Shown here: positions 20,231 to 57,628 of the stretch, one piece after another | How positions within the stretch are numbered: position 1 is the stretch's first letter | How the letters are laid out: each line of letters starts with the position of its first letter | NCBI GenBank assembly: GCA_918797485.1 | Contig: CAKKNE010000003.1 | Span: 3,906,001 to 3,970,000 of the forward strand | From: Pelagomonas calceolata | Taxonomy: Eukaryota > Sar > Pelagophyceae > Pelagomonadales > Pelagomonadaceae | Reading direction: 5' to 3' | DNA length: 64,000 bases | The notes under the pieces: model-generated | Seen by the model: only the letters and a program-made list of their open reading frames with translations | What the model was told of the DNA's origin: nothing | The model's database searches: none | Program-made: the position numbers and the translations under genes

Positions 20231-20371
20231 CAAGAAGCCCTGAGGAGGAGGCAATTGAAGGCTGCTGCAGTGCCCTGGTAGAGCGCTAGCAAGTTGCAAC
20301 GTGTGTCCAAAAGCTCTCTCTCGGACGACCCCGCCATCCCGCGCTGCATTCGCGCCACTGCAGCAAAGCTG

Positions 20372-22546
20372 ATGGCCCTCCCGCGCTGCCTTGCAATCCT
20401 CGCCGCCGCCCATGCTTTCCTGCTACCTGCACAGAAAGCGCGCACGTCATTAAGAAGAGCGACGGGCCCCGTCGTGCTTATTGGAGAGGACAGCTTCGGC
20501 GAGGAGCTGGCCTGTTTGGGGCAATCCGCAGCCACCGCTCTCAGCGGTCTGAGTGTTGCGGTGCGAGGCAAGGACGAGCTCCGGAACGTCCTGAAAAACG
20601 TCGACGCCAACGACGTCGTCCACTGCACGGACTCGGCTCTGACGGGCAAGGACTGGAATTTACTAGAAAGAGATGCGTGCCCGATCTGGGTCCGCTGTGT
20701 CAATGAATTCGGAAATGATGTGGTGAAAGAAATTTTCCGAAACGGAAAGCGGCGGAAGACGTGTCTGTACGAGGTCGCGGCCTGCGCGCCTTATTCTGCC
20801 GTCTTATCAATAGAGGAGCGGGCGAGTTGGGGCGGCGGTGCTTCTAGCATCAAGAGAATCGTGGACTTCCACCGGCGCGACCGGTTGTCGGACGACGAGG
20901 TCGCCTTGGAGGCGGGCCTGGACACGTTCTTCGTGTCCTTGACGTTCGAGGATTACGAGCTGCCAGAGACGCGGCAGGTGCTCGCGGAGCTCGCGAATGA
21001 TGCAAGGGTCACGGCGCTGGAGTTTCGGTGTGATCTCCTGCGAAGCTACAACCCGGGCAATGTGTTGAAGCAGTTGCATGCGGCGCGGGAGGCCTGTCAG
21101 GCGTCGTGGCGCGGTTCCGAAGCGAGGCTCATGTTTACGGTCCGGAGCGTGTCGCAAGCGGGCGCGTTTCGCGACGAAGACGTCGACGAGATGGCGTCGC
21201 TGCTCGAGTTGGGTTTAAGGGCCGGCGTCGATTGGCTCGACGTGGAAACGGAGACTTTATCGCGGAAGCAACTGAAAAAATTGAGGCGGATGGCCGACGA
21301 ACGGGGCGCTACACTCGTGTTAGGGTCGCACCACCAGCTCGGCGAGACGACGTCGTCGGCACGGGCCGAGGCGTTACTGAACAAGTGCGCGAAGCGATCG
21401 GACGGCGACGCCGTCAAGCTCGTCGTCGACGCGGCGTCCGCCGACGACGCCGCGAGCGCCGCGACCGTGGCGGACGTTGATTCAAGGCCGCCTCGAGTCG
21501 TGTTAGCTCTGGGCGATGCGGGCAAACTATCAAGGGTGTTAGGTAGAAGATTTCTGCCCGCGACGCATGAATCCTTACCGTCGACGGCAGCTCCTGGGCA
21601 AATATCGCCGAACGAAGCCCTTGCCCTCCGACGGGACTGGGGCGTCGTGTCGCCGAAGAAGTACGCTGTTTTATTGGAGAGCGACTTTGGATCTCGCTCT
21701 CCGGCGATGCACAATGCCGCGTTCCGGGCGTGCGGCCTGCCTCATCAGTATAGTGTCTTGGAGTTACCTGATCAAGGTGGTCTCGACGACGTCAACTCCG
21801 AGACGTCCCAACAGTTCCGGGACTACCTGGCCTCGCCTTCATTTGGGGGGTTATCGGTGACCATACCTCATAAGTTGCGGGTCCAGCCGTTTCTAGATGA
21901 ATTGACGGACTCCGCGCGGAAGATCGGCGCGGTCAACACGATCACGCCGCGGCCGGCCCTGGTCACGTCGCGGACGACGCTGGGCGGCGCTTCCGTCCTC
22001 ACGGGCGACAACACGGACTGGATCGGCATCTGCGAGTGCATTTCCAAGGCGCTCCGTAAGAGGTCAGGAGCGACCACGGGGCGTGCATTAGTGGTAGGGA
22101 GCGGCGGGACGGCTCGGGCCGCGTGCTACGCTATGACATCTGGAAGACGTGCTAGAGGAGAGAAGCCGTTCTCGCTGCTGGTCTACGCGCGAGACACGAG
22201 CAAGGCCGAGGAGCTCGCCAGGGCCTTTGGTGGGAAGGCCGTCGCCGATTTGGCTTCTGTGACGGTCGACGCGGTCGTGTCCACGATCCCCGGTGCCGCG
22301 AACTTTGAGCTGCCGCCGGCATGTCTCAAAAACAAGCCCGCGGTCCTCGACGCGGCGTACAAGCCCGCGTCGACGGCGTTGTTGGTGCAGGCCAAGGCCG
22401 CGGGCTGCCCCATGGCCCAGGGCGCGTCGATGCTCGTGGCCCAGGGCGTCGCGCAGCTCCAGCAGTGGACGGGGCGTGTGGCACCTATACCGGCGATGCG
22501 CGCGGCGGTCTTCGAGGGCGTCGAGGAGCTGGAGGGGGATAGTTAA
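20372..22546 (+). CDS. Plastid bifunctional 3-dehydroquinate dehydratase / shikimate dehydrogenase
   Basis: Two fused shikimate-pathway enzymes (724 aa). The AroD-like domain (class I, Schiff-base) spans about residues 180-380: VSLTFEDYELP, ALEFRCDLLR, FTVRSVSQAG, LVLGSHHQLGE (catalytic His) and DAVKLVVDAAS (Lys). The AroE-like domain begins near residue 426: SRSPAMHNAAFRACGLPH, LSVTIPHK (catalytic Lys), AVNTIT, DNTDWIG (Asp) and the NADP loop VVGSGGTARAACY. Plants use the same fusion. The leader MALPRCLAILAAAHAFLLPA, with a predicted cut before Phe, resembles the ASAFAP signal of stramenopile plastids, so I start at 20372, not at an in-frame ATG at 20294. About 130 residues before AroD are unassigned. 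Confidence 0.9.
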   Translation: MALPRCLAILAAAHAFLLPAQKARTSLRRATGPVVLIGEDSFGEELACLGQSAATALSGLSVAVRGKDELRNVLKNVDANDVVHCTDSALTGKDWNLLERDACPIWVRCVNEFGNDVVKEIFRNGKRRKTCLYEVAACAPYSAVLSIEERASWGGGASSIKRIVDFHRRDRLSDDEVALEAGLDTFFVSLTFEDYELPETRQVLAELANDARVTALEFRCDLLRSYNPGNVLKQLHAAREACQASWRGSEARLMFTVRSVSQAGAFRDEDVDEMASLLELGLRAGVDWLDVETETLSRKQLKKLRRMADERGATLVLGSHHQLGETTSSARAEALLNKCAKRSDGDAVKLVVDAASADDAASAATVADVDSRPPRVVLALGDAGKLSRVLGRRFLPATHESLPSTAAPGQISPNEALALRRDWGVVSPKKYAVLLESDFGSRSPAMHNAAFRACGLPHQYSVLELPDQGGLDDVNSETSQQFRDYLASPSFGGLSVTIPHKLRVQPFLDELTDSARKIGAVNTITPRPALVTSRTTLGGASVLTGDNTDWIGICECISKALRKRSGATTGRALVVGSGGTARAACYAMTSGRRARGEKPFSLLVYARDTSKAEELARAFGGKAVADLASVTVDAVVSTIPGAANFELPPACLKNKPAVLDAAYKPASTALLVQAKAAGCPMAQGASMLVAQGVAQLQQWTGRVAPIPAMRAAVFEGVEELEGDS

Positions 22547-27271: not shown

Positions 27272-28809
27272 TTAACCGCAAGCCGCCGGCGTATACAGAT
27301 CGGCAGCATAAGAGCACGTCTCCGGCTCGCCGACGTTTTCGAGCCACTCCTCGGAGCCACAGCGCAAGGACACGACCAAATCCCGCGCGCCGCGCCCGGG
27401 ACAGTGCTGGCCGCCCCCAAAATACCACTTCGTGTTGTCCGCGCGCCATTCCCGAAAACTTCCCAGCGACGTGTGGTCCTGCTTTGCTCGACCGAACGCG
27501 CACACTTCGTACGTGTACTGGCTGACCTTGACCGAGAAGCACCTATCCCGCAGGACGTGGTAGGCGCCATCTGGCCCTGCATCGCCGTCGAGGACCTTTT
27601 GGGCGTCCCGCAGCGCGGTCTCGGCCGTTTTTTTCGTGGCTTCGGCCTCCTCCAATTGTTTTTTCGCTTCCGACGCGTCGGCTGCTAGGTAGGCCTCCAT
27701 ATCTGACGAGGGCCGTTCCACGGGGAGCACCTTCCCAGCTAAGGCGCCGCCGACGTCGTAGAGCGGTACGAGGCGCTGCTTCGCTTGCGTCGCGTCGGTC
27801 TTCGCGCAGGCGGCGAGGGCCTCTGTCGCCGCCTTCGTCGTCGGCGCGTCGTCGGAAAAGGGCAGTCCAGATAATAATCCCTGCAGCCGCGTCCGCGCCA
27901 GCGACGCGGCGTCGGCGCGCTTGGCCTCCTCGCCTTCCTGCGCGTCGTTGAGCGCCTCCAAGGTGTCATGACCTGCGCACGGCGCGTCGCGGCGATGGCG
28001 TGCACGCGTCGCAGCGACGGCGTACCGCTCTTACGCCATCGACGCGGAAGGCAGGACGCCGCCGCGGCACCGAGCGACAGGACGTCGGCGTCCTCGATAG
28101 TATCCGAGGGCAGGTTCTCGTGCACCGCCTCCAGCAAAGCCTCGATATTATCAGCAACAACACAAAGCGCGACGGCGGCCCTTGCTATGGATGCGGGCGC
28201 TTCACCTAGCAAAGCGGCCTCGCGCTGCGCGGCCGCGTCGACGTCCGCCTTCGCGACGGCGGCGTCCCGCCGTGCCGTCGCCTCCGTCTCGTACGAAGCT
28301 ACTCGCTGGCGCGGGCCGTCTTCATCTATTTCGTCGAGGAGCCGCTGCGCGTCATCACGACGAGTCTCCGCGTCCGCGATATCATTTTTATACTGTTCGA
28401 CGTACTCGGCGCGTCTCGCGAGCCCTTTCAACCGCTCGGCCTCGGCCGCCGCCGCTGCGGCGGCGGCGGCCTCAGCGGCGGCAGCACAGGTGTCCTCGCA
28501 CGTACCTTCCGCTTCGTCCTTCCCGTCGCAGCAATCGCAGACGCCGTCGCCGACGCGCGACGCGGGGACTCCGGAGCCATCGGCACATGCAAAGCGTTTT
28601 AGGGCCGTGACGCCGGAGCACGCAGAAGTGCGCGGCTCGTCGGCGCCGTCGGCGCAGTCGCAATAATCATCATTGATATACGACGAGGGCACGGCCGTGT
28701 AGCCGCCGTCGCAGGCGAGGCCGCCCGCCGGCACGTCCGGCTTGCGCTGGCGGCCGAAGAAGGCGGCGTTCGCTGTTATTGTGAGCAGGAGGAGGGTGGC
28801 CCGCGGCAT
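27272..28809 (-). CDS. PRKCSH: Glucosidase II beta subunit (PRKCSH/GTB1-like)
   Basis: A signal peptide (MPRATLLLLTITANAAF) is followed by paired LDLa-like modules: YINDDYCDCADGADEPRTSA and SRVGDGVCDCCDGKDEAEGT, the signature N-domain of glucosidase II beta. A central Ala/Glu-rich coiled coil follows. Exon 2 ends in a mannose-6-phosphate receptor homology domain: DGAYHVLRDRCFSV, YTYEVCAFGRAKQ, KWYFGGGQHCPGRG and CGSEEWLENVGEPETCSY. In the ER lumen this subunit retains the alpha subunit and recognises mannose while glucose is trimmed from N-glycans. Length is about 479 aa if the donor at 28070 is used. It is divergent from selenoprotein M. No HDEL-type signal ends the frame (PAACG). Confidence 0.9.
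27973..28070 (-). other. Introner-type intron in glucosidase II beta
   Basis: Acceptor GTGCGCAG is clear. Three donors (28070 GTGCCG, 28043 GTCGAT, 28034 GTAAGA) all fit the frame. The interior contains both hairpin arms, GCGTCGATGGCGTAAG and CACGCCATCGCCGCGACG. Confidence 0.65.
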
Positions 28810-28993
28810 TGCTTCGCTGCGTCGCGCGCCGTAAAGCCGATTTGTGTCGGCCTTGAGTGCTTTGCCACAGCAGCGATGACAGCGTTCCGCGCGTCGCTGC
28901 AGCTATTGAGGGCGACAAATGCCTGGTCTGAGGACCGCGCAGCGATGCAATACGAGCTCCTAAGCCGACGGCGCGCAAAAATGTCGAGCGCGG

Positions 28994-29018
28994 CTAGTGT
29001 CTTTACACGACGCTAGCT
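28994..29018 (-). promoter_or_regulatory. Recurrent palindromic promoter motif, copy f
   Basis: CTAGTGTCTTTACACGACGC then TAGCT, 1 bp longer than consensus, between divergent glucosidase II beta (28809) and selenoprotein M (29192). Confidence 0.55.
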
Positions 29019-29191
29019 AACTTTTCACTGGATTTTTCCGCGGGATCTCGACGTCTCTCGCGTCGACGAGGCGTGGAGAGCCGAAGGAGTCAGCGGACAG
29101 CCCGCCCTTGCATATCGCAGCGCGCGAGCTCGCCGGAGGACGCGTCGGCGGAGCGCAGCTACACGTGGCTTTTCGCAGCGCTCGCAAGACG

Positions 29192-29853
29192 ATGGCGCCG
29201 CGACAGCTACTGATCGCCGCACTCCTCGCCTCCCCGTGCCACGCCTTCTTCAGCAGCGGCCGCACGTGCGAGATCGAGTCCTGCAACACGTGATGGCGCG
29301 ACCGCATCCCGGTGGCGGACCGGTGGATCAAGGGCGAGGACGGCGCGGCGGCGTACGGCTGCAAGATCACGTGGATCCGGCACCATTCTCCCGAACTCAT
29401 CGTCAAGGACGGCTGGTCGGAAGTAGAACGGATTTCTCTAGAAAGGATGCGGTCGGCCCAAGAAATTGATAGATTGATGCAGTCGCGAGGGTTCAAGCAC
29501 ACTGATCAATATCGGGAGAAGCTGCGGTCGAAAAGGGACGTCACGTTTGAAGCGACGGACGAAATTGATATCTACTATTTGCAGGCGGACGGGTCCGAGG
29601 CCGTGTCCACCTTACGCCATCGAGCAGACGCAGTTCGCGTCGATGGCGTGCGGATCGTGAAATCTGATGTCCACGCAGGTCCAAGGAGCACGTCGGGACC
29701 GCGGACCGCGGCGAGCCCGTGACGGTGCAGACGACGGTCGGGCACCGGTTCGAGATTCAAGATGGGTTCGGCGACGTCGTCAAGGTCTATGTCGTACAAG
29801 AGGGGTCGCTGCACCAGCGCGTGCGGGTGAACCCGTCGACGGGGGAACTCTAG
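29192..29853 (+). CDS. SELENOM: Selenoprotein M family protein with UGA-encoded selenocysteine and C-terminal VHL-like extension (195 aa)
   Basis: Coding is join(29192..29604, 29679..29853). The frame carries one in-frame TGA (29291-29293), giving CNTU at residues 31-34. What follows matches the SelM/Sep15 fold: WRDRIPVADRWIK, then SPELIVKDGWSEVERISLER (compare ADPELVLL...ELERIPLSEM of SelM), then EIDRLMQSRGFKH. The distance from the CxxU to the PELV block also fits, so TGA is best read as selenocysteine. An ER-type signal peptide (MAPRQLLIAALLASPCHAF) precedes it. These are thioredoxin-like ER redox proteins. The tail VTVQTTVGHRFEIQD and VVKVYVVQEGSLHQRVRV resembles a VHL-type beta domain, and the introner intron lies just before it. 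A hairpin with SECIS features follows the stop. Confidence 0.82.
29605..29678 (+). other. 74-bp introner-type intron in SELENOM
   Basis: Donor GTCCACCT, acceptor GATGTCCACGCAG. The downstream exon starts GTCCAAGG, so a decayed 8-bp TSD (5/8) supplies the donor. Both hairpin arms are present: TTACGCCATCGAGCAG and TTCGCGTCGATGGCGTGC. The 3' end matches the 87-bp element at 56638. Confidence 0.8.
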
Positions 29854-29860
29854 TCCGCTC

Positions 29861-29919
29861 GCCGGGCGCGTGAGATGACGGGGCGCGACTGTACTAGGTC
29901 GCGCCCCCGAGAAGACGCG
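29861..29919 (+). promoter_or_regulatory. Candidate SECIS element in the SELENOM 3' UTR
   Basis: Eight bases after the stop: helix I CGCGT/ACGCG (29867-29871 with 29915-29919), an internal loop, then ATGAC (29875-29879), a perfect 10-bp helix GGGGCGCGAC/GTCGCGCCCC (29880-29889 with 29898-29907), loop TGTACTAG, then CGAGA. ATGA opposite GA fits the SECIS non-canonical quartet. The apical loop lacks the usual AA, so the assignment is not certain. Confidence 0.55.
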
Positions 29920-30136
29920 TTTGGCGACGGGGGCTCTGTGTTAACATCTATGTCGTGAGGCTTCTTCGCGGCGGTGGCGTCGAGTGGTGCGCCGTCGATG
30001 TCGTCCCCGTTGAGAGTGCGGCCGCGACGACGGCGTCGAGCCCGGACGCCATCGACGCGCCGCCGCAGATAGTTTATGTGATTTGTCTTACTAAAACTGG
30101 GGTGCGTTGTGCACGCAACTCCGAGGCACGCCGCGG

Positions 30137-30463
30137 CTACGGCCTCAGCGCGTCGAGGTGGGCCCGGACCTCGCCCCGCGCCCAGCGGTCGCTCGTGCCC
30201 TCGGCCAACGACGGGTAGATCGGGATCGCGGCGCCCGTGTCGACGGGATGTAGCGTCGCGTAGCCGGCCTTGTAAATGGCCGGGACGACCGCTTCCCGGT
30301 AGTCGTCGTTGATGCTCTGGAAGAAATCTTCTCCGTGAGCATCGAGGTTGATCGGCGCCGTCTCAGGCGCGCTGATCATGCTGGGGCAGACGACGCGGTT
30401 CGCGCCGGGCAGTCGCGTCGCGAGCTTGACGCTCGCGCTGGCCAGGATGGAGATGAAGCGCAT
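30137..30463 (-). CDS. Small hypothetical protein (108 aa)
   Basis: An open frame starts with a weak signal-like N-terminus (MRFISILASASVKLATRL) followed by an acidic soluble body (GEDFFQSINDDYREAVVPAIYKAG...), with normal amino-acid composition and no low complexity, which supports coding. No family is recognised. It is convergent with SELENOM. The 283 bp between them hold the SECIS candidate and an isolated introner core (GACGCCATCGACGCG at about 30046). Confidence 0.5.
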   Translation of the reverse strand: MRFISILASASVKLATRLPGANRVVCPSMISAPETAPINLDAHGEDFFQSINDDYREAVVPAIYKAGYATLHPVDTGAAIPIYPSLAEGTSDRWARGEVRAHLDALRP

Positions 30464-30956
30464 CGTTCTAGTGTCGTGTCGTGGGTCGTGCCGTAGAGTC
30501 GTGAGAGGCGTCCTGGCGTTTGCGAGAGGCGGGAAAGCACAAGAGTGTTAGTCAATTGCAGAGTCTCACTTGGTGCGCGTCGAGGTTCGACGAGGCGTTG
30601 TGAGTGTCAATTCGGAGTGTAGAGGAAACGCGTGAGCGGGCCACAGGTCGCTGATGCGATTGCTGCGGCTTTTTTGTGGTGCTTAAATATTTTATGCTCT
30701 CCACAATCGGAGAACGAGGGCCGGCAAAGGCCGGGCACCGCAAGCCTAGAATGCCGCGCTCCACTCCTAGCTAGACCTCCAGACGCTTGGAGCTCTGGGC
30801 AGTGGCCCCTCCCGCCTGGCGCGCGCCGCTCTCGCCGCGCGCGCACGAAAAAGGCCGGGCAAGTGACCGCGTTCCACTCCTAGCCAGAGCACTGACGGAC
30901 CTAGAGCCCGTACGAAGGCCCTGTCCCGCGCACGCCCCGAGCGAAAGGAAAAACTA
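30464..30956. other. Intergenic region with an imperfect direct repeat
   Basis: Two related blocks, about 30722-30778 and 30849-30893, share AAGGCCGGGCA, a spacer, then CCGCG[CT]TCCACTCCTAGC. The first has extra bases in the spacer. No gene is supported. Confidence 0.4.
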
Positions 30957-33181: not shown

Positions 33182-34711
33182 ATGCCTGGGCAGCGGCTGC
33201 GCCTCGCGCTCGCCGCCATTTTTGCGGGCGCGCGCGCGCAGTGGCACATCTACCACTCCGACCGAAGCGCGGACAGCGTCTGCGCCCTGTGGCTGGAGTA
33301 CGTGCTCGCGCGCGCCTTCCCCAACGTGACTGGCAGCGCGTGCGTCTCGAGCTCCAACGGCCACCGCGACGACTGCCGGCGGGCGCCGCCGACGAACTTT
33401 AGCGTCTTCTTCGAGAAGGAGCCCGCCGACGGGCCCAGCATGAAGAAGCGGGCCGACGCGCACGACCTCGTCGTCACGAGCCTCGCCTCGACGCGGACGC
33501 CGCGGGCCGTCTACGTGCCGTGGGCGGCCCTCTCGTTCGTGTCACGCACGCAGCCGCCCGCGGCGCTGCTGCGCCCGGCGGGGGCGCCGGCGGAGGCCCG
33601 GACGAAGGCCGTGCTGTACCTGAACAAGCACCGGGTCTGGTACCGCGAGAATTTCGTCCGGGACCTGCGAGACGGGAACATTCCCGTGGTGAGCCGGGAC
33701 GACCTGCTGCGGAACGGGACGCTGAGCGACGTTCGCGCCGCGAACGTCAAGACGGAGGACGGCCGGCAGCTCTTCTTCGACGAGGCCGTCGAGGTGGCGG
33801 CGCGCTTCGACGTGCTCCTGGCGTTCGAAAACGCGGTAAAACCTGGGTGGGTCACGGAGAAGATCGTCAACGGGTTCCTCGCTGGCACGGTCCCCGCGTA
33901 CCGCGGCACCGACGACGTCTTCCGCTTCTTCAACCGGGAGGCGTTCATCCACTGCGCCTCGGCCGGGACGCGGTGCGAGGCGGCCATCCGCCGCGCGCTC
34001 GCCGACGGCGACGCGCTGCGCCGGCTGCGCGAGGCGCCGCCCGTGACCGCGGAGGGGTACGCGCGGTTGTTTCCGTGGCACGACACGGTCGCGGACGAAG
34101 CGTGGTATGCGAACGTACGGCGCATTCTGACCACGCCGCGGGAAGTCCGGGCCAAACGGGCCGACGGCGGCTCCTGCGCCCGCCCGACGCCGGACGACGC
34201 ATTGCTGCGCGCCTGGCGGGACGCCCTCGCCGAGGGACACGAGGGCACGTGCATGCGACGGCCGGCCGGGAGACGGTCGGCGAGGCCGCGCCGAGCGCCG
34301 CGCAAGCGGAGGCCAGAGTACTGCCCACGCCCGACGCCGGACGACGCATTGCTGCAAGCATGGCAGGATGCCCTCGCCGACCTCCCGGAGGACATGTGCG
34401 AGCGACCGCGGGAGAAGCGTCGGGCGCGCCGGACACCGAACAAGCGGCGGCAGGATATCTGCCCGCGGGTTGCGCCGGATGATGCGCTGCTGCAAGCATG
34501 GCGGGACGCGCTGACCAAGAAATCCGAAGGCGAAGGCGTGTGCAAGAATCGCCGCGGAAAGTCGACGGCACGGATCGCCCAGGAGAAGATCCACCAGAAG
34601 TTCGGCCGCGTGGCCCTGGCGGATAAGCGGAGACACGCCGACCGCATCGCGGCGAAGGCCAACCTCTACGCCCGAGGCGCGCGCATCAGAGACAGCGCGA
34701 AAGGCAGGTGA
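33182..34711 (+). CDS. GT10 fucosyltransferase with C-terminal Cys-bounded repeats (509 aa)
   Basis: A cleavable leader MPGQRLRLALAAIFAGARAQ precedes a GT10 (alpha-1,3/1,4-fucosyltransferase) fold. The diagnostic donor-binding block is FDVLLAFENAVKPGWVTEKI with VNGFLAGTVPAYRGTDDV (about residues 207-245; family pattern LafENs...VTEK...aG.VPv.G). GT10 enzymes move fucose from GDP-fucose to GlcNAc of N-glycans in the Golgi. The C-terminus has three copies of a roughly 26-residue unit, CxRPTPDDALLxAWxDALAE...C, starting near residues 331, 380 and 427 and separated by Arg-rich linkers. A degenerate promoter motif (33097-33120) lies between this gene and the divergent EF-hand gene. Confidence 0.8.
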   Translation: MPGQRLRLALAAIFAGARAQWHIYHSDRSADSVCALWLEYVLARAFPNVTGSACVSSSNGHRDDCRRAPPTNFSVFFEKEPADGPSMKKRADAHDLVVTSLASTRTPRAVYVPWAALSFVSRTQPPAALLRPAGAPAEARTKAVLYLNKHRVWYRENFVRDLRDGNIPVVSRDDLLRNGTLSDVRAANVKTEDGRQLFFDEAVEVAARFDVLLAFENAVKPGWVTEKIVNGFLAGTVPAYRGTDDVFRFFNREAFIHCASAGTRCEAAIRRALADGDALRRLREAPPVTAEGYARLFPWHDTVADEAWYANVRRILTTPREVRAKRADGGSCARPTPDDALLRAWRDALAEGHEGTCMRRPAGRRSARPRRAPRKRRPEYCPRPTPDDALLQAWQDALADLPEDMCERPREKRRARRTPNKRRQDICPRVAPDDALLQAWRDALTKKSEGEGVCKNRRGKSTARIAQEKIHQKFGRVALADKRRHADRIAAKANLYARGARIRDSAKGR

Positions 34712-34809: not shown

Positions 34810-37800
34810 TCAGCTCGTGCGCGCGCGGAGGCGCTGGACGTCGGCGTCGAAGCGCCGGATCGCCGCGGCGTGGACGCGGCGGTCGATCGCGTTCATCGTC
34901 TCCAGTGCTTCGCGCTGCGACGCTGGGACAGGTGTCGGACTCGGCCTCGCTCCAACCGGGAGCACTCGCTCGATCGCGCCGTCGCTCCAGCCGAGCGTCG
35001 CCGTTACGAGGTCCGCCGTCGCCGCGTCACCAAGGCGCTCGAAGACCAGCACGAGGTCGAAGCGTTGGAGCGCGACGAGCGCAGCCCGGAGCGTCTCGTC
35101 CGGAGCGTCTCGTACGGCCGCTGCGTCCGCGCGGAGCCGTCGAGGCGCCTGGCGCAGCGCTATCGGCCCAAACTCGCCCCCCAGCAGCATGCGCGCCGTC
35201 AGGTCGGCCTCGGCCTCGCCGAAGGCGATTACGTCCGCGCACGGGCCGCCGTCGCACCTACCTCCACCGCCGCCGTGGAAGCGGTACGAGCTGAGCGTGC
35301 AGTTGACGGGGTCGCGGACTATGACGACAAACGCCACGCCGCGCGCGGCGGCGACCGCCTCGAGCACGGGCGGCGCGAGGAACTTGTGCTCGGTCGAGCC
35401 GAAGCCGATGCCGCGCGCCTGCAACCGGCGCAGGCCCCCCAACACGCCGTCCGCCTGTGTGGAAATCAAATTTTACGGCGCGTTCGTGCTGAATCGTCGC
35501 GTCGTCCTTCACGCCATCGACGCGACGCCTGCTCGATGGCGTGGCGATGCCGGTTCCTCGCCGCTCGACCGAGCCAGGACGGCCGCGTCATTGCCGAGAA
35601 ATGACTTAGTGAAGAATTGTCGGGTGTACCCGACGCACTGGTTGATTTCCACACAGCCGTCCGCGGACGCCAGGTCCAGTCTCTCCGCCCCCAACTCCAG
35701 GTGCCCGTGCGTCTCCGGCTCGTGCGGCGCCAGCCGAAGCCCATTTCGCAGTGCGAGAGAACAGAACGAAGTCCCGGCGGCCTTGTGGATGTGGAGTAGC
35801 CAGACGAAGCGCCCGGTAACGGGCGGCACGGCGTCCAGGTCGCTGCTCTCCGGGGCGCTCCAGGTCTGGTCGCCGCACCAGTAGCGATGCTTCGCGCACG
35901 CGTCGCGACGCCGCTCGGCCGCCGCACCCGGGGGAAAGTGCGCCGCCCACTCGTCGACGTCGTCCCACGGCTCGAGAAGTACGCCGGCCACCCTCGCCGG
36001 CTCGGGCAGCGCCTGCGTGCAGAGCCGGACCGCGCATAAGCTCCGCAACGCGCGTCTCGCCGCGGCCCGCAGATCATCCCTGGTCACGATCCCGTTTCCG
36101 ACCTTCGCTGCGCGGGCGGCCGCGCGCGCCACGCAACCGGCGGGCTCCTCGCGCGGCCGGCACCTGTGTGGATCAAATTTTACGGCGCGTTCGTGCTGAA
36201 TCAACGCGTCGTCCTCCACGCCATCGACGCGACGCCTGCTCGATGGCGTGGCGATGCCGGTTCCTCGCCGCTCGACCGGGCCAGGACGGCCGCGTCATTG
36301 CCGAGAAATGACTTAGTGAAGAATTGTCGGGTGTACCCGACGCACTGGTTGATTTCCACACAGGTCGGCACGTGTAGGTGGACCCCGGCGTCAGTTCCAG
36401 GACGACGCTCTGCCCCGGCAACGCCGCACAGCTCGTGTTGCCTCGGCAGAGTAGCGTGGCGATGTCTTCTGCCCGCGCCCGCCGGTAGTCCCGCGTCGCC
36501 CCGGCGTGGAGCTCGTCGGCGACGTCGACGCCGACGCTCCGCGGCCAGTCCCACGGCGACACGGAGAATTTCTCGCCGTCGTAGTCGAGCCGCGACGACC
36601 ACCCGTCCTTCTGGAGTTTCGCCCCGCGGCAGCCTTCCGGGCGCTGGTCGCAGAACCACTTTATGGATTCATAGAACGAGTTGTCGTCCACGATTCGGCC
36701 CGTCGTCGCCCGTATGTCGCGCGCCACGGCAGCGACGGCCGCCGGCGGCCACTCCCATGGCTCCATCGTCGCGACGCCGGCTGGCAGGAGAGCGAGCGTC
36801 TGCCGTGGGCCGGGCCGCGCCTCCTCTGCGGAGCACCGCCTCCTTTCGCAGATATTGGCCACGAGCGTGCGATACAGCGCGTTTGGCGTAGCCACGCCGT
36901 GCTTGGCCGCCTCGCGCGCGGCGTGCGCCGCCGCCAGGCGCGCGCTCCGGTAGATGGGCACCTTGACGGTGATCGCGAGCCCGTCCTCGTTGCTCTCGAT
37001 GTCGACGGTAAAGCTCAACTGCTCGCCAAGCGGCCGCGCCGCGACTGCGCCGGCGTCGATAGCTGCCTGGTACCACGCCCGGACCGCGTCGTCGGAAACT
37101 TCATGCCCAGCGCGGTCAGCGGCCTGCGCGAAGCGCTCGACGCTGTCCGCGGCCGTCTCGTTCGGCAGCGGCCGCATCGTACCAATTGACGGCACGTCGA
37201 TGGACCATGTCTTCTGCTGCCTGGTGGTGCCGACGCGATCTCGCGGCCCGCCGAAGCGCGGGACCGGGTGGGCCTCGGTCGTCAGCACCCACTCCGCCAA
37301 AGGCAGGAGCTCGTCGCCGCCGTCCGCATCATCAAAAATCAGGTAGAAATATTTGAGCGTCTCCGAGAGAAACCACGAGTCCATCTTGTCCACGCGCGCC
37401 GGCGTCTGCTTGTGGATCTGGCCAAGCGCAGCAAAGCCGCCGCCGTCGATGGCCGCGTGCCTTTGTAGAGCGTCCCAGATCCGCGCCGCGGCGGTGACCC
37501 ATTTTTGCTTGCGCGTGGCCCGGTACATCCAAAATAAGCTCTCGACGGTCTCGGGCCGAAGGAGGTGCCGCGACGGGCCGAGCTTGACGGAGCCGTCGTC
37601 GTTCACGTGCCAGGCCTCCGGGGCCAGGTTCGTCGGCGTCGCGTCGTAGGCCGCGACGCAGGCGTCTAGCAGCTTCTCCGCGAGGGGCAGGACCGACGAC
37701 GCGACCCGAGGATCCGCGAGCGCCTCCAGCGCTCGCAAGCCCGGCCAAAAACAAGCTAAATGCGTGGCCCGATTCCCGAGCGTCTCGTTCTTCTCGATGT

Positions 37801-38815
37801 CGGCCATGAACGTCGTCGGGCCGCGCACATTTATTAAATTTGCATCCACTGCGTCCACGGCATCGCTCCACGTTCTCGGCGGTCTGCCGCTCCCGCCCTC
37901 CTGGAGCCAGCCCTTGAGCAGGTACTCGTAGTACGAGTCGACACCCGAACCGACGGTGAGCTTCGCCTGGTCCCCGAACACGAACTGCGCGGCGCAGCCG
38001 CTCGAGGTCATCTTGAGCTTCGAAGGCGCGAGGCCCTTGACGCGTCCGGTGGCCTTTCCGAGCGCTTGCCAGGAGCGCATCGCTAGTTCCTCCAGGTCGG
38101 GTCGGCCCGCCAGGCGCGCCACGGCCCGGAACTCGAGCAGCAGCGTGCCGGCGGGCGCCGTCCCGCAGGTCGCACCGGTTGCGGGTGATACAATCCCGTC
38201 CCGGAGAGAAGCGAGGCCCCGGAACGGGATTCCCGATGGAGACGCCGAGAGAGCTGGAGCTAGAGCATCGGCGAAGGTCTCGGCGGCGTCGAGTAAGCGC
38301 TCGTCGCCTGATAAAGAGTAGGCGCTCACCAGCCCGCCCAGCACGCGTATGGTGGTCTCAAAGACGTCCACGAACTTGCCGCCCGCGATTTCAAAGGGAT
38401 CAAAGGACTCGGCGACGTGATCGGCCGCCTCTGCGAACTCGTCGCGGAGCCCCAGCACCCAGAGCGTCGACATGGCGTCGATGAGCGTGACTCCGAGGGC
38501 TGGTTGCGTCCAGTTGTGCGTCGCGTTGGACACGGGCCGCAACTCGTCGGAGCCCCAGGCGTGGCGCTTGTAGTGCTCGAAGCTTCGTTTCGTGGCGGCG
38601 ACGACCTGGGCCCGGCGCGCGGCAAACTCGGCGGAAGCACTGGGCATCACGCCATCCGGATCTATCACGCCCGGCGCCCGGGCCGGGAGTTGGAGCGGCG
38701 AGCTGCCGAGCGCCTGGTCGAGGTCGTCCAAATAGATAAGGTTCGGCGCTGCCCACGCATAGATGGGCAGCAGAAGGAGGGGCAGCGCAATCATCGCCTG
38801 CCCTCGCGCATTCAT
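34810..38815 (-). CDS. GH47 class I alpha-mannosidase fused to a sulfotransferase (1195 aa, two introner introns)
   Basis: Coding is complement(join(34810..35454, 35665..36163, 36372..38815)). A signal or anchor (MNARGQAMIALPLLLLPIYA) sets the start; an ATG at 38887 is also in frame. The GH47 domain spans about residues 60-560: GVTLIDAMSTLWVLGL, FETTIRVLGGLVSAY, LRPETVESLFWMYR (catalytic Glu) and MDSWFLSETLKYFYLIF. An unassigned linker follows, then a sulfotransferase domain: FVWLLHIHKAAGTSF (PAPS loop, about residue 935) and FVVIVRDPVNCTLSSYR (3'-phosphate strand, about 1024). Both introns are nearly identical 200-bp elements with TSDs, and splicing restores frame exactly. It would trim alpha-1,2-mannose and sulfate glycans in the ER/Golgi, a fusion I do not know elsewhere. 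Confidence 0.85.
35455..35656 (-). mobile_element. Full-length introner element, copy 1 (202 bp)
   Basis: TIRs CTGTGTGGAAATCAA / TTGATTTCCACACAG. The 8-bp TSD CCGTCCGC is perfect (35447-35454, 35657-35664). In the host gene the intron is 35455-35664. The acceptor is CACACAG of the TIR and the donor must be GC (GCGGAC of the TSD), because only this restores LAS|ADGVLGG. Confidence 0.9.
36164..36363 (-). mobile_element. Full-length introner element, copy 2 (200 bp)
   Basis: About 97% identical to copy 1 and in the same gene and orientation. TSD GCCGGCAC/GTCGGCAC (7/8). The intron is 36164-36371 with donor GTGCCG from the TSD and acceptor CACACAG from the TIR, phase 2. Confidence 0.9.
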
Positions 38816-38887
38816 GCGGATACCATCGCGCTGGGGATTTCGGCTTGCGAGCAGCGCGAGTCCGAGAGTGTCCGAGACTCGTGACAT

Positions 38888-40302: not shown

Positions 40303-41196
40303 TTTTTTCAGGTTCAGGCAAACATATTGAGCTAGTTATGACCCACTAGATTTCACGCTCGACGCCCTCCTCTAGAGTTGTGGTTGGGCCGTATCGTTGT
40401 TCATCACCCGCAGTCGTGCTCATCACTCAGTGGCGCGCTGCGCTTCAATCGCTGCGGCTGCGCGGGCAACGCGGTGCGCCGTGCTGAGCCTCGCAAAAGG
40501 CGGAGACTCCTGGCGCCTGGCGGCCCGCGCGCGGCGCGACGCGTGCAAAGCGCCACCCCCCGGGCCCGCGCTCGGCCTCGGCCGTATGCTGAACGACTCG
40601 GCGCGCTCGCCGCAGCGGTACACGTCTCGCCGCTGCGCGCCGCCGCGGCCGTCGCGGCCGCGACCGCATCGATGGCGTCGGGCGGCTCGCGGGTCGCGCC
40701 CGAGCTGACGCCGGACGTCGCCGTTAACTTCTGATAGCGGGCCGCGCGGCTCGAAGCGGTGCGTCGATGCTTCGCGGGATGCGGCACACCACTGAAGTCT
40801 TGGAAGAGGCCAACTCGGATTAGATCCGGCCGAGACGCATACCTAGCTTTTGCGACATCATCTCGGAGACGCCGGCTGTCAGTGTGTACTCTATCTCGTC
40901 GTCCATGCACTACTACGACGACATCTGACCTCGAGACGATCTATCGTGGGCTCAGAGCGCGCCGATGTCGAGGGCCATCAAACACGCCAGTGTCCTAGCA
41001 TCCCGTGGCACGCTACTAACGTTCCGAGGGTGCCGTTCTCGGGGGCTACGACAATCACCAGCCCCGTCGCGCTTGCAAAAGAAGCGTCAGCCGCGTCGTC
41101 GCTCGGGGTTTCTAATATAGCTAGTCGTGGCCCGTAGACCTGCTAGGACCGGTGGTGGTGCGCGCGCGCGGGCGCCGGCCTGCGAGAGGCTCTGGC
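40303..41196. other. Intergenic region between divergent genes (about 0.9 kb)
   Basis: Open frames occur on both strands around 40400-40910, but their Arg/Ala-rich translations match no family and have no supporting feature. No clear copy of the promoter palindrome. A 14-mer CTAGTTATGACCCA at 40332-40345 recurs at 43364-43377. Confidence 0.3.
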
Positions 41197-43323
41197 ATGC
41201 AATTGTCGCTCTCCGTACGCGGCTCCCCGGTGCCAAAAATGAGCCGGAGACGCTGCGACTGCAACGGCCCCGTCGAGGCTTCAGCATTTGGAGCTTTCGT
41301 CCCGGATCTGAAGACTCTAAGCATCACACTGCCGTCCCTGCAGCCGCTGAGCGCCGCGCACGACTGGGATTACTGGCCGTTCGGCGCGCGATGCGAACGC
41401 GAGTACTACGCGCTAGAAGCGAGCGGCAGCCTCATGCAGATGGACGCATACGAGCGCGCGGACCTGCAGGAGAGCATGCCGTCGATCTGCGGCCTGGACG
41501 GCCGCCAGCTGGAGCTGGTCCTGAAGCAGTACGCTGGGACGAAAGCGTTTAGATACGCGGCCGCAAGGATGCCGGACTGGTTCCGGCAGATGTGCCACAC
41601 GGGCGCGCTGGTGCCGTACGTCGCCGGCGAGGAGGTCGCGCACGCCGCCGCGCGGCCGTCGCCGCCCGCGAGAAGGGCGCCCGCCGCGGCGCCGCCGCGG
41701 AGACGAATACTGCGCGGCGGCACGCGGCGGCCGCCGGCGGCGCCGGTCCCGGCGGCCGTCGAGCCCGACGAGCCCGACGAGTCCGACAAGGACGACAAGA
41801 TCAACGTGAGAAGGCTGACGTTGGCGGACTACAACAAGCCGGGCGTCTCCATGGCCGACAAGGACGCGAGACTAATAGCTTTATTGGATGCGTGTCGAGA
41901 GGGCGTGTTCGGCGAGGAGCTCCGGGACTGCGACGTGCGCATGGACTGCGTGGTGGCGCGGGGCTACCCGCTCGGCGTGGACGTGAAAAGACGACGTAAA
42001 ATTTTCGGCACCGACCCGCACGCCGACCAGTTATTGCTGGACGCGGGCTTCGTGCGAGTTGGTGCGAGATGCCCTGCGGCGAGGGCGGACGAGGCGCTCG
42101 AGCGGTACGGGCCGGTGCTGCGGGACGCGGCAAAGCGCGGGCTCGCGTTTGGGTCGTCGCGATCGGCGAAGATGACGGAGCTTAGGAAGGCCATCTGCTG
42201 GTTGAGAGAGCGGGTAAAGAATGCGCGTGCGTCGGACGACGTCGTCCTCGAGCTCGCCAAGGAGCTGGGCAAGCTGGCGCCGGAGGACGCGAAGGGCGGC
42301 CGGTGGGGCACCGAAGTTTACTGGGCGCACTACTACGCGGACCAGGCGCGCGCGGTGCTCGCTCGCGCAAACGAGGAGGACGAGGAGGAGGCCGCCGAAG
42401 CAGTTTCGGCGACGCCGCGGCCGCGGCCGCGGCCGCGGCGCGCCGCCTCGGGACTGGCGCCCGCGGTCGTCGAGAGCAGCGACGACGAGGACGTCGCAAC
42501 GCCGCCGACGGACGACTACGAGGACGAATTTGACGCCGCGCCCGCGGCTCGGCAGACGCGGAAGCGGGCGGCCACGAACACGGGCGACGGCGGGGATGAC
42601 GCGACGACCGGGGCGCCGCGAGCACGGCGGCGGCGAGACACGGACGTGCCCGACGCGTCCGACGTCAAGAAGAAGATCGACCCGACGAAGCTGACGAAGA
42701 AGGACTGGAACCGGCGCCTCCCCATGGACCAGAAGGAAGAGATCCTCGTGGCGTGTTTAGAGGCGATACGAGCGGGCGAGATCCCCGACGTCGAGGACTG
42801 CGACGTGCGCCAGAACTGCGTGCTGTCGGGCGGCTACGAGCTCGGCATGCACATGAAGCGCCGACGTCTGATCTGGGGCTCCGACCCGGACGCCGACCAG
42901 AGATTGCTGGACGCGGGCTTCGTGCGAGTTAGCGCGAGAGGCAACGTTGCGAGGGCGGACGAGGCGTCCGAGCTGCACGCGCCGGTGCTGCGGGCCGCGG
43001 CGGCGCGCGGGGACGGGTCGTACGCGACGACGGAAATTAAGGACAGCGTCACCTGGTTGGGAAGGAAGGTAAGGGAAGCCTCGCGCGCGTCCGATGTGGC
43101 CGACAACGTCTACCTCGAGCTCGCCAAGGAGCTGGGCAAGCTGGCGCCGAAGAAAGCGAAGGGCGGCCGGTACGGCACCGACGTTTACTGGGCGCACTAC
43201 TACGCGGACCAGGCGCGCGCGGTGCTCGACGGCGAGGACGCGGCGCCGCTGGTTCCGAAGAAGCGGAAGCGGGCCGCGGCGCGCGCGAAGCCGGTCAAGA
43301 AGCGGTCGGGGCGGCGGCGCTAG
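41197..43323 (+). CDS. Unknown nuclear-type protein with a duplicated roughly 150-aa domain (708 aa)
   Basis: No known family is recognised. After a 120-residue N-terminal region there are two copies of one domain. Each starts DCDVRxxCVxxxGYxLGxxx, continues KRRRxIxGxDPxADQxLLDA and GFVRVxARxxxARADEAxE, and ends LELAKELGKLAP and YWAHYYADQARAVL. They are about half identical and separated by an acidic, low-complexity linker (EEDEEEAAEAV, SSDDEDVATPP). The C-terminus is a Lys/Arg tail (KKRKRAAARAKPVKKRSGRR), suggesting nuclear location. The start may also be 41239 or 41152. The domain's Cys and KRRR motif may bind nucleic acid; this is inference. Confidence 0.7.
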   Translation: MQLSLSVRGSPVPKMSRRRCDCNGPVEASAFGAFVPDLKTLSITLPSLQPLSAAHDWDYWPFGARCEREYYALEASGSLMQMDAYERADLQESMPSICGLDGRQLELVLKQYAGTKAFRYAAARMPDWFRQMCHTGALVPYVAGEEVAHAAARPSPPARRAPAAAPPRRRILRGGTRRPPAAPVPAAVEPDEPDESDKDDKINVRRLTLADYNKPGVSMADKDARLIALLDACREGVFGEELRDCDVRMDCVVARGYPLGVDVKRRRKIFGTDPHADQLLLDAGFVRVGARCPAARADEALERYGPVLRDAAKRGLAFGSSRSAKMTELRKAICWLRERVKNARASDDVVLELAKELGKLAPEDAKGGRWGTEVYWAHYYADQARAVLARANEEDEEEAAEAVSATPRPRPRPRRAASGLAPAVVESSDDEDVATPPTDDYEDEFDAAPAARQTRKRAATNTGDGGDDATTGAPRARRRRDTDVPDASDVKKKIDPTKLTKKDWNRRLPMDQKEEILVACLEAIRAGEIPDVEDCDVRQNCVLSGGYELGMHMKRRRLIWGSDPDADQRLLDAGFVRVSARGNVARADEASELHAPVLRAAAARGDGSYATTEIKDSVTWLGRKVREASRASDVADNVYLELAKELGKLAPKKAKGGRYGTDVYWAHYYADQARAVLDGEDAAPLVPKKRKRAAARAKPVKKRSGRRR

Positions 43324-49887: not shown

Positions 49888-52800
49888 CTAGATGCGCACG
49901 GTAATGGTAGCGCCGGGCGCGACGCCCGGCGGTACGCGTACTCTGACGAGCTTCCCATCGGGGGCCCTCACTGTAATCGACCCACCAGCGGGCACGTGAG
50001 GAGGAATCTTCACGCGCATGAGCGTCGAGCCCGGCGGTCGCGGCGGCGGTCGCGGCGGCTGCGGCGGCGCCTTGGGCGCCGCCGCCGCCGGCACCGAGAT
50101 GCGCATCTGCTGGCCGGGCCGCACGTTCGGCGGCACGCGGACCTTGATCGTGCGGCCGTCCGGCGCGCGGACCTGGAGGATGGCGTTGGGGGCCGTGCCC
50201 GCGGGGATCTGGACCATCATGGTCCCACCCGACGGGGCGGCCGGCGTCGACCGCGGCGGCGGCGCCGGTGGCGGTGCCGGCGCACTCTCCTGCTGCCACG
50301 GCGTCGGTTGTGAAGGAGCTGATTGATCACCGTCGCGCCGCACGACGCGCGTGTTCTGGCTTCGTAGATTCACTTGAATAATACCCTCCGGCGGCGGGTG
50401 CGGCAGCTTCGCACTGACCGCCTCGTCGCCCCACCTTACTTCAAAGGGAATACCAGGTAATGATACTGTACCACTCCCGTTCGACGCCTTCATGGCCCGC
50501 TCAATCACGCGACAGTGCTCGTGCGCATAGGCCTCCCATCCTCCAGGACCGCGATGACTGAACCGCGCGTCGCCTTTATGAAAGCCAGACACGGCTTTCC
50601 TCGCCGCCTCGATGGCCCTCCGATTCGCAATTTTCTTCGCCTCGTCCCTTGCTTCCTCGGCCTTCCGCCTCTGGATCGCGGCGGCCTCCGCTCTTCTACG
50701 TTCTTCGACAGCCTTGCGCTCAGCCTCGCGCTGCGCCTCCACGGCCCTAGCTTCCGCCTCCCTTCGCTCGAGCAACTCCCGCTTTTCGCGTTCCTTGCGC
50801 TCCTTCAACTCCCGAGCTTCTCTTTCTTTCCGTGCTTGGACCTCGGCGAGCCGCGCAATTTCTTCGGCCCGTCGCGCCTCGGCCTCTTCGCGCTCCTTGG
50901 CCCTCCGCTCTTCAAGCGCCCGCTTCTCCCTTAATTTCCGCTGCAGCAATGCCTCGGCCTCCCTTTCTTTTTGGGCCTGGGTCGCCTGCAGACGCCGAAG
51001 TTCCTCGTCCCTCCTACGATCCGCCTCCTGCCGCTGTTGTTCTCGTCTCTCATTGAACACTGACGTCGCGGCGGTCTTCCGCTGCAGTAACGCCGCCGAC
51101 GCGGCCTCCTTCTCGGCGAGCTTCTCGCGCTCGCGAGCGGCGATCTGCTCCTGCCTATGCTGCGTCCGGGCGCGCTCAGCCTCGCGTCTCTGAAAAAAGG
51201 ACGCCGTGCCCTCCTGCGTCCGCGCGAGGTGCTGGGCCGCCTCCTCGCGGTGGGCCTCGCGCATGGCTCGCACCATCGTCGAGCCCGCCTGCCGGAAGGC
51301 GTCCCTTCTGTTCTCTCGCCGGGCGAGCTCCTCGGCGCGCCGTCTCAGCTTGTACGCTCGCTGCGCCTCGGCCTCGGCCCTAGCTGCTCTCTGATGGACA
51401 CAATCAAGAGGCAGGACCAAGCCTTCCTTGAGGATAACGTCTACACCTTTTTTCAATGCCGTCTGTTCGGCCGGTAAGAAGCCGCACAGGTAGACGTCCC
51501 CGTCGTAGTCGTGCGTCGCCACCGCCCGGCACGCGAGCTCCACGACCCTATCCAGTGCAACATGACCCCGGAAAATACCGGCCGATAAGAGTGGAAACGC
51601 CACCCGCTTGATGCCCTTCTCCCGGGCCAATGACAAAGATGAAGCATAAGCCGACAGCAATAACGTCTCGGCCTGTTGAGCAGGATGCGACCGGAAGTCG
51701 GGGCCAACAGCATGTAGTACGAACTCCGTGCCGATGTTGCCGTAGGAGTTCGGTCCCGTAGCCACGCAGCCGCCTACTTTTATTCTTTCATGCCTGTTAT
51801 TAATGATAGGTAGAGCCCTTCGATCTCTATGCATGGTCGGACCACCTGCCGAATTGACGGCCGCGTCGACGCCCCCGCCACCCAATCCCATCACATTAGC
51901 GGCGTTGACGATGGCCGCATAACCACTACCATAATTCTTGAAACTCACGACGGAACCCGCGGCGATGCGCAGCGACCCGCCCGCACTACGCCTTACTTCT
52001 AACAAACAGTCCACGCCGCAGTCTCGACGACTGAGCCACTTCGAATCTTGGATGTCCCAATGTAAATCACCGTTGTCCCGCACCTTGAACGAGGGGGCGT
52101 ACCTGTGTGGAAATAAAAAATTTTACGGCGCGTTCGTGCTGAATCGTCGCGTCGTCCTCCACGCCATCGACGCGACGCCTGCTCGATGGCGCGGTGGTGG
52201 TCGTTCCTCACCGCTCGACGGAGCCAGCACGGCCGCGCCATCGCCGAGAAATGACTTAGTGAAGAATTGTCGGTGCGCGCGACACACTGGTTGATTTCCA
52301 CACAGGCGCGTACGTCCGCCCTCGAGGACCGTGGATCTTCTCCTTCATGCGGCCTTTCAAGTGGTTGTGTTCTTGCACAATTGTAAAGGCGCTCTTGGGG
52401 GTTTCTCGCCCGTTGCGGTACGTGACGTACTCGTTGGTGGCCGTCTGTCTGAATTCGTATATGTCATTGTTGGGCTTTCCTGTTTGTACATCTACGGAGT
52501 ACCACCTGCCGGCGAGATCTAGGGTGAGCGTCGGTTCCTCGTCAGATGATTCGTCTGGAACCGCGACCGGCTTGGCCGCGGGCGCGGTCCTGGGCGCGGG
52601 CCGCCGCGCGACGGCCGAGGACGCCTCGCGCGGGCGCACGCGGTCGAAGGGCACGTTGCGCTCGCTGCCTCCATCATTGTATCGGACACTACAGCCTTTG
52701 TTAGACACCTCCGTGACCGTGCCGCGATACCAAGCCCCGCGGCCGCGCCAGTCGGCCTCGACACTGCAGCCCGCCCGCAGCCAGGCCGGCGCCTCGACTC

Positions 52801-55898: not shown

Positions 55899-57628
55899 AT
55901 GGGCAAAAAGCCGCGCAGGCCGTCTCTGGTCTCCCCCAAGACCCAGAAGGAGCTCGCGACGCTCACGGGCAGCATGAAGGCCAACACGGCGCGCCACCTC
56001 GCCGAGGAGCAGTGCGCCGAGGAGCGGACGCGCCGGCGGCCGCGGACGCCGTCGCCGCGGCGGCCGAGGAGCACCGTCTTCACCCGTCTCGCCGGAGAAG
56101 AAGTAGAAGCGGCCGAGGCGGACGCTGTCGCCGCGTATTTGAAGAGATGCAACCACGTGCGCGTCGGAGTGCCCGTGTGTGTCGTGCGGAGAGACGTCGC
56201 GTTCGAGAGTCCCCAAGTGGCCACGCTGCCTCGAGACCAGCTGGTTGTGGTAGAAGAAGAACGGTTGCTCGGAGACGAACGACGCGTGCGGCTGTCCGCA
56301 CCATGCATCGGGTGGGTGTCTCGACGATGTTTAGTTGTTAGTGAAGACTTACTGAACGAGAGAAGATTGAGAACGTTAGTTTGCGTCTCCGGAGACGAAT
56401 TACCGCTCTTCGAGGCTTGGTTAAAATTCTACCGGAGATGGCACAATTCTCAGAGAGAACTACACGTCGGCTTCTACGACGACGAGGCCTACGCGTACCT
56501 TTTGAGGTTACAAGACGACGATGCATTAAATGTGATCCTCCACGACACCGTGATCTTTCCCAACGTTTATGAACGAAAAGAGGCCCAGAAACGCCGAGAA
56601 AAGATGCGCATCTACCAGTGGGTCTGCCAGTCCGCGCCTGTGTCATTTCTCGGCGATGGCGGGGCCGCGCTGGCTCCGTCGAGCGATTCAGGACGAACGC
56701 GCCGTACATTTGATGTCCACGCAGGTCCGCGCCGGTCGGCGCGCCCGTGGTCTACTCGTCGCTCGAAGCGTTCTGGATCAAGGACCCCCTACCTGATCTG
56801 TTGCAACACCGGAGACGAGTACCGCCGATGCTCGATGATATAAGGCCGCAGGGCCGGCCTTGTTTGCTGTTCTCGCTGGATTATGGGGAGATCTACGAGG
56901 GCGAAAAGAATGTGGAATTATGCACGGGCTTCTGTTGTGTTTTTAACGAAGAAAGCTCGAGGAAATTCCTGCGGGAGTGGCGAGCCAAAGTCGACGCGAC
57001 GGGCGCGCAGGGCTCGTATGATCAATTACAGGTGAACCAGATGTACAAGACGTGGACCGCGTCGCAGAAGATAAGGACCGTGGTCGAGCTCGACTACGAG
57101 GACTACCAGCGCTGCTTGAGAGGCAAGGAGACGTGGGCCGTGCCCTTGATCTGGCACCCGCGCTGTCCCGTCGATCCCGCGACGAAGAGGCCGTATGACG
57201 CTACTAGAAGAGCGGCGGCGCTAACATATGTGGCAAAGCAGTTGGTCAAAGGTCATGTTGGTGTGATAAGGGCCTTCCACCTGTGCCTCGAGGGCGGCGA
57301 GGACTTCGCTTCTCGCAAAGCGATGCATTTGGAGGCGACGCGCGGCGTGCTGCCTGTCCTCACGCCGGAGTTCGCGCTGGATCCCAAAACGGGCCGGCCG
57401 CGCTTTCGCTTGCGGAGCTCCGTGAAAGTGCCGGGGCCGAAGAAGGGGCCCTTGGTCGATTCTTCGGGGAAATTGACGGGGAAAATGAATCTCATGGACG
57501 CGGCGAGCGGCGCTTCCCGCAGAATGCGCTTCCAAGAAAAGCTCGACGCGAAGGCGCAGGCTTTGCATGAGAAGCATGCACCTGAACCAGTCGTGCGCAA
57601 CGCGGCCATCCCGTTGAAGCGGTCGTAG
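55899..57628 (+). CDS. GT77-like nucleotide-sugar transferase (544 aa, one introner intron)
   Basis: Coding is join(55899..56629, 56725..57628). After a basic N-terminus and an SH3-like stretch, the transferase part begins RTLVCVSGDELPLFEAWLKF. Exon 2 starts APVVYSSLEAFWIKDPLPDL, the place where GT77/nucleotide-diphospho-sugar transferases have the DxDxxWlrdPlp motif, then CLLFSLDYGE and ELCTGFCCVFN (compare lntGFfyv). The classic DxD is not obvious (YSSLEAFW), so it may be a variant or inactive enzyme. No signal peptide is seen at the chosen start. The intron is an 87-bp element with a perfect TSD. Confidence 0.65.
56638..56724 (+). mobile_element. 87-bp deletion-derivative introner element
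   Basis: Perfect TSD GTCCGCGC (56630-56637, 56725-56732). The intron is 56630-56724 with donor from the TSD and acceptor CACGCAG from the element, restoring CQSAPVGAPVVY. Its sequence joins the two outer parts of the 200-bp family (TTTCTCGGCGATGGC and GACGAACGCGCCGTA) with the middle missing. It is inserted in opposite orientation relative to the full-length copies, yet still ends in an acceptor. Confidence 0.88.

Follow-up and report, generated by a model that had tools for sequence, protein, structure and literature searches.

The locus described here raises the question of whether an in-frame TGA codon is read as a stop or as selenocysteine (Sec), and of what kind of protein the frame around it encodes. 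Annotation readily overlooks genes for selenoproteins, since it takes their TGA for a stop codon; the present gene would show up as fragments. The window, i.e. the whole stretch of 64,000 nucleotides that was analysed, has a mean G+C content of 0.647 over 16 blocks; this lies between the genome values tabulated for Pelagomonas calceolata (63.6 per cent) and Aureococcus (67.4 per cent; Table 1, PMC9481584). In our view, the locus very probably holds a nuclear SelM gene that decodes Sec and belongs to an alga of the pelagophyte type, with one splice of 86 nt, a SECIS element after the stop codon, a secretory product with a CxxU motif and a C-terminal tail of the pVHL-fusion type.

The gene is read from the plus strand. 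ATG 29192 is the first ATG past the in-frame stop at 29018, and the reading from this codon is MAPRQLLIAALLASPCHAFFSSGRTCEIESCNT-TGA-WRDRIPVADRW... The first-pass annotation had placed a TGA at 29291-29293, at the second redox position of CNTU. The codon is indeed present there in the translation, as residue 34 and second position of a CxxU motif, and it aligns on the Sec column of human SELENOM. From the frame, the intron enumeration, the profile match and the alignment we take it to be probably selenocysteine. A signal peptide had also been proposed, and the start of the protein (29192-29248, plus strand, MAPRQLLIAALLASPCHAF) is hydrophobic and signal-peptide-like, as judged by eye on the translated sequence. 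Third codon positions have a G+C content of 0.91 ahead of the TGA, of 0.73 behind it in the same frame, and of 0.88 in the second exon described below.

Alternatively, the locus might consist of two short genes independent of each other, or of frames that are open by chance, and the resemblance to SelM might be accidental. Downstream of the TGA, the earliest in-frame start is GTG 29312 and no ATG precedes the conserved core, which argues against such an arrangement. With the TGA translated as Cys, the protein matched Pfam family PF08806 (Sep15_SelM) at E 2e-5 and 25.0 bits, with residues 28-101 aligned to profile positions 3-75 of 75. This score is 1 bit lower than the gathering cut-off of 26 bits, and such a slight shortfall would be in keeping with an accidental resemblance; however, the E-value over this length of the profile and the comparison with human SELENOM both speak against it. 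The local BLOSUM62 score between the two proteins was 62 and was reached by none of 2000 shuffles, the best of which scored 45. When all six frames of the window were divided into segments of at least 30 residues (TGA as Cys), human SELENOM ranked the segment of this gene first out of 857 with E 0.0064, followed by a runner-up with E 1.9. An accidental resemblance is therefore most improbable.

When the sequence was divided at the TGA, the stretch after it matched Sep15_SelM by itself with E 8.2e-4 and 19.8 bits; no Pfam match was obtained from the preceding 33 residues by themselves. In the alignment with the family, U stands in the Sec/Cys column, with CNT-TGA opposite CGG-Sec of human SELENOM. 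The PELIV, EVERI and GF blocks, previously described as following at the spacing seen in SelM, pair as PELIV, EVERI and RGF with PELVL, ELERI and LGF of the human protein. A phmmer search of the 191 residues of the spliced product against the PDB (E up to 10) returned no SelM or Sep15 chain; therefore, the relation is a distant one. The single-sequence structure model of the SelM part, for which a thioredoxin-like fold would be expected, was poor (pLDDT 39.9). Pattern searches for relatives of the exon 1 protein found none, neither from 3 stretches in viral contigs nor from 29 in genome contigs. The one match to an NCBIfam model scored 13.5 bits (E 0.036), where the cut-off is 500, and was disregarded.

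Like mammalian SELENOM (mouse chain PDB 2a2p), the algal protein has the CxxU motif and the PEL../ELERI../GF blocks, but it differs by its longer tail, which ends in TGEL. The human protein stops soon past the domain and ends in HADL. The TGEL terminus does not fit the KDEL-type pattern of ER retention tails, which algal forms are not known to need. Selenoprotein F (Sep15, PDB 2a4h) belongs to the same Pfam family PF08806, but is characterised by a CxU spacing and a preceding cysteine-rich region, whereas the algal gene has the CxxU spacing and lacks such a region.

Another explanation would be that the TGA is spliced out by an intron and that no selenoprotein is encoded at all. Introns over the TGA were enumerated with donors from 29195 to 29293, acceptors up to 29439 and the frame kept to ELIVKDGW. 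Fifteen in-frame GC-AG pairs bridge the codon; however, each of these would delete the CxxU motif together with preceding residues, at least a quarter of the residues matched by Pfam, and not a single GT-AG pair bridges it. Thus, the earlier statement that no intron with GT or GC donor and AG acceptor can remove the TGA while sparing the coding sequence around it holds, and removal of the codon by splicing is highly improbable.

With the TGA retained and decoded, the end of the gene has to be reconsidered. A single frame from 29192 to 29853 had been claimed. This frame is open across the TGA at 29291-29293, but when read straight on it hits further TGAs at 29720 (residue 177) and 29828 (residue 213). 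Therefore, an end at 29853 needs an intron. This intron is absent from the first-pass annotation, which likewise made no mention of a SECIS-like hairpin, a second domain or the published SELENOM-pVHL fusion. Another frame is open and coding-like from 29680 to a TAG at 29851-29853. Most simply, the reading frame would be restored by an 86-nt GT..AG intron at 29593-29678 (plus strand), which joins the frames of exon 1 and exon 2; splicing it out gives 191 residues and the stop TAG. Because many other in-frame donor-acceptor pairs exist, we infer this junction. Exon 1 (29192-29592, plus strand) would then comprise the signal-peptide-like start, the CNTU redox motif, the Sep15/SelM domain and the first part of a C-terminal beta region, and exon 2 (29679-29853, plus strand) the rest of this beta-rich region. 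Across the proposed intron, third-position G+C is 0.62 in the frame of exon 1 and 0.46 in that of exon 2.

Parts of the 86-nt intron recur elsewhere in the window. Its acceptor stretch is found again at 56708 (74% over 43 nt), and the interior of 212-nt repeats starting at 35445, 36152 and 52095 contains, in reversed orientation, a stretch that is 86% identical to 36-37 nt of the intron. Parts of the motif common to the intron and these repeats were met again at numerous further positions of the window. A short motif centred on CGCCATCGACGCG was observed at 29614-29650, at 30023-30059 and at many other sites of the window, on both strands. The 212-nt repeat is present in three copies (35445-35656, 36152-36363 and 52095-52306; the latter two 94% and 76% identical to the first), which have the inverted ends CTGTGTGG / CCACACAG. 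These repeats are introner-like, and introners have been reported for Aureococcus (PMC9860276).

Decoding of the TGA as selenocysteine would call for a SECIS element. A SECIS-like hairpin was found by a core scan and by folding at 29854-29931 (plus strand), directly adjoining the stop codon. Helix I (29854-29871/29915-29931) has 17 pairs, four of them G-U, and one bulged base, and is separated by an internal loop from a GA/GA core (ATGAC 29875-29879 / CGAG 29908-29911) located 21 nt past the stop of the gene. The 11 pairs of helix II (29880-29890/29897-29907) are closed by the apical loop GTACTA (29891-29896). Thus, the stem with a non-Watson-Crick GA/GA core that is required of a eukaryotic SECIS is present in the putative 3' UTR, and the apical loop, GTACTA, lacks the unpaired AA or CC usually placed 10-13 nt from the core. 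The hairpin has a minimum free energy of -53.2 (z -4.78), and none of 200 shuffles was equally stable; equal stability was found in 178 of the 18262 83-nt windows of this G+C-rich DNA.

How often such a structure arises by chance was estimated from 40 dinucleotide shuffles of the window. Sites with a GA/GA core and a helix II of at least 8, at least 9, 10 and 11 pairs are expected 1.575, 0.55, 0.15 and 0.075 times per window, respectively. On both strands of the 64 kb, this hairpin is the only site with a core and at least 9 pairs, and three sites have 8 pairs. A lax scan (core and at least 7 pairs) returned 26 sites on the plus strand and 42 on the minus strand; between 29000 and 31500 of the plus strand, the hairpin was the sole site listed. 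Rfam gave no match at the gathering threshold over the whole window and, with E up to 10, six weak matches within 28800-30700, none of them a SECIS. The classic SECIS search pattern, quoted as NTGA..AA/CC..GA (PMC2375036), misses the hairpin because its loop is without AA or CC. Within 29800-30500 of the plus strand, the only candidate for this pattern starts at 30309, and its AA is paired or half paired. Fourteen sites elsewhere that pass the pattern, nine on the plus and five on the minus strand, were taken as chance occurrences.

Among vertebrates, the loop of the SelM SECIS carries CC in the placental mammals and AA in all others (PMC3316567), whereas the algal candidate has neither dinucleotide. 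Since the apical dinucleotide varies within the SelM family, the hairpin was accepted, in part on this ground, as the SECIS of the gene with a non-canonical loop; it is likely functional. The odd loop could also be read in another way, namely as a sign that a Cys-type SelM gene has become a pseudogene or a dead allele by a point mutation of TGC or TGT to TGA, Cys codons being one base away from TGA. A dead gene is, however, difficult to reconcile with a frame that is still open after the TGA and has G+C-rich third positions, with a TGA exactly on the Sec position of the family, and with a SECIS-like hairpin directly downstream whose helix II is of a length expected only 0.075 times per window. 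In addition, the fusion protein published for Aureococcus is a selenoprotein with EST support (PMC7539508). We consider a pseudogene improbable. Taken with the profile match and the CxxU position of the TGA, the hairpin supports the initial interpretation as a SelM gene in which TGA is decoded as selenocysteine.

A second beta-rich region lies C-terminal of the SelM domain. From Aureococcus anophagefferens, Jiang and colleagues (2020) described a fusion of SELENOM to a pVHL domain whose coding region is present in genomic and EST sequences (PMC7539508). Like the present gene, it combines a SelM selenoprotein with a further domain, and it comes from a pelagophyte; the comparison of the two is one of published architecture. 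On this analogy, the gene is probably of the SelM-pVHL kind known from Aureococcus, being either that gene or an ortholog, and a pVHL-like nature of the tail is suggested by the published architecture. Pfam gave no pVHL match for the C-terminal region. An ungapped alignment of the tail with human VHL (a fragment matched to PDB chains) extends over 34 residues spanning the splice junction, but its score was reached by 177 of 2000 shuffles. Folded alone, exon 2 gave an all-beta model with five strands (pLDDT 64.8). Foldseek returned 213 PDB matches for this model at E up to 10, none with E of 0.001 or lower, and VHL was absent among the best 50 of them. No relatives of the spliced C-terminal region were obtained from 23 pattern stretches in viral contigs. 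The single candidate from 297 stretches in genome contigs, on a Bacteroidales contig, was a 22-residue match under ORFs on both strands and was rejected as chance.

Upstream, the SelM gene has a divergent neighbour on the minus strand, a gene for the glucosidase II beta subunit (27272-28809) assigned by Pfam in two ORFs (27739-28809 and 27272-27961; PF12999 E 4.2e-23, PF13015 E 3.4e-18). The start codons of these two head-to-head genes are 382 nt apart. A promoter common to the SelM gene and a gene of ER glycoprotein quality control would suit an ER protein, but this is only suggestive. Downstream of the SelM stop codon, a GT10 fucosyltransferase gene was noted at a distance of 3.3 kb (33182-34711, plus strand), with three 92-nt repeats near the end of its reading frame (79% and 61% to the first), and a GH47 mannosidase gene at 6.3 kb (36173-38887, minus strand). 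Further away, an ORF at 41152-43323 contains an internal duplication (41925-43243) made up of 224-nt and 149-nt repeats, 867-870 nt apart and 80% and 87% alike, and a single ORF at 20294-22546 (plus strand) fuses type I dehydroquinase with shikimate dehydrogenase. No tRNAs were found in the 64-kb window.

In the proposed model, the mRNA would be spliced once, with 86 nt taken out, and the UGA at codon 34 would be translated as selenocysteine by means of the SECIS hairpin that adjoins the stop codon. The SelM product would enter the secretory pathway, carry a thioredoxin-like CxxU redox centre and end in a second beta-rich region that may be the counterpart of the Aureococcus anophagefferens SELENOM-pVHL fusion. 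The SelM-pVHL architecture itself is already known (PMC7539508); the present locus is new only in detail, namely in the odd SECIS loop and the divergent glucosidase II beta neighbour. It is tempting to speculate that a SECIS without AA or CC stands on a long helix I that starts from the stop codon, and that Sec-containing SelM and a pVHL-like tail together form one secreted redox-plus-binding unit under a promoter shared with glucosidase II beta; as a whole, this combination is rather doubtful. Should the SECIS without AA or CC work, a lineage whose selenoproteome is very large could dispense with the apical dinucleotide. A functional loop of this kind would be of consequence for programs that search for SECIS elements and require AA or CC.
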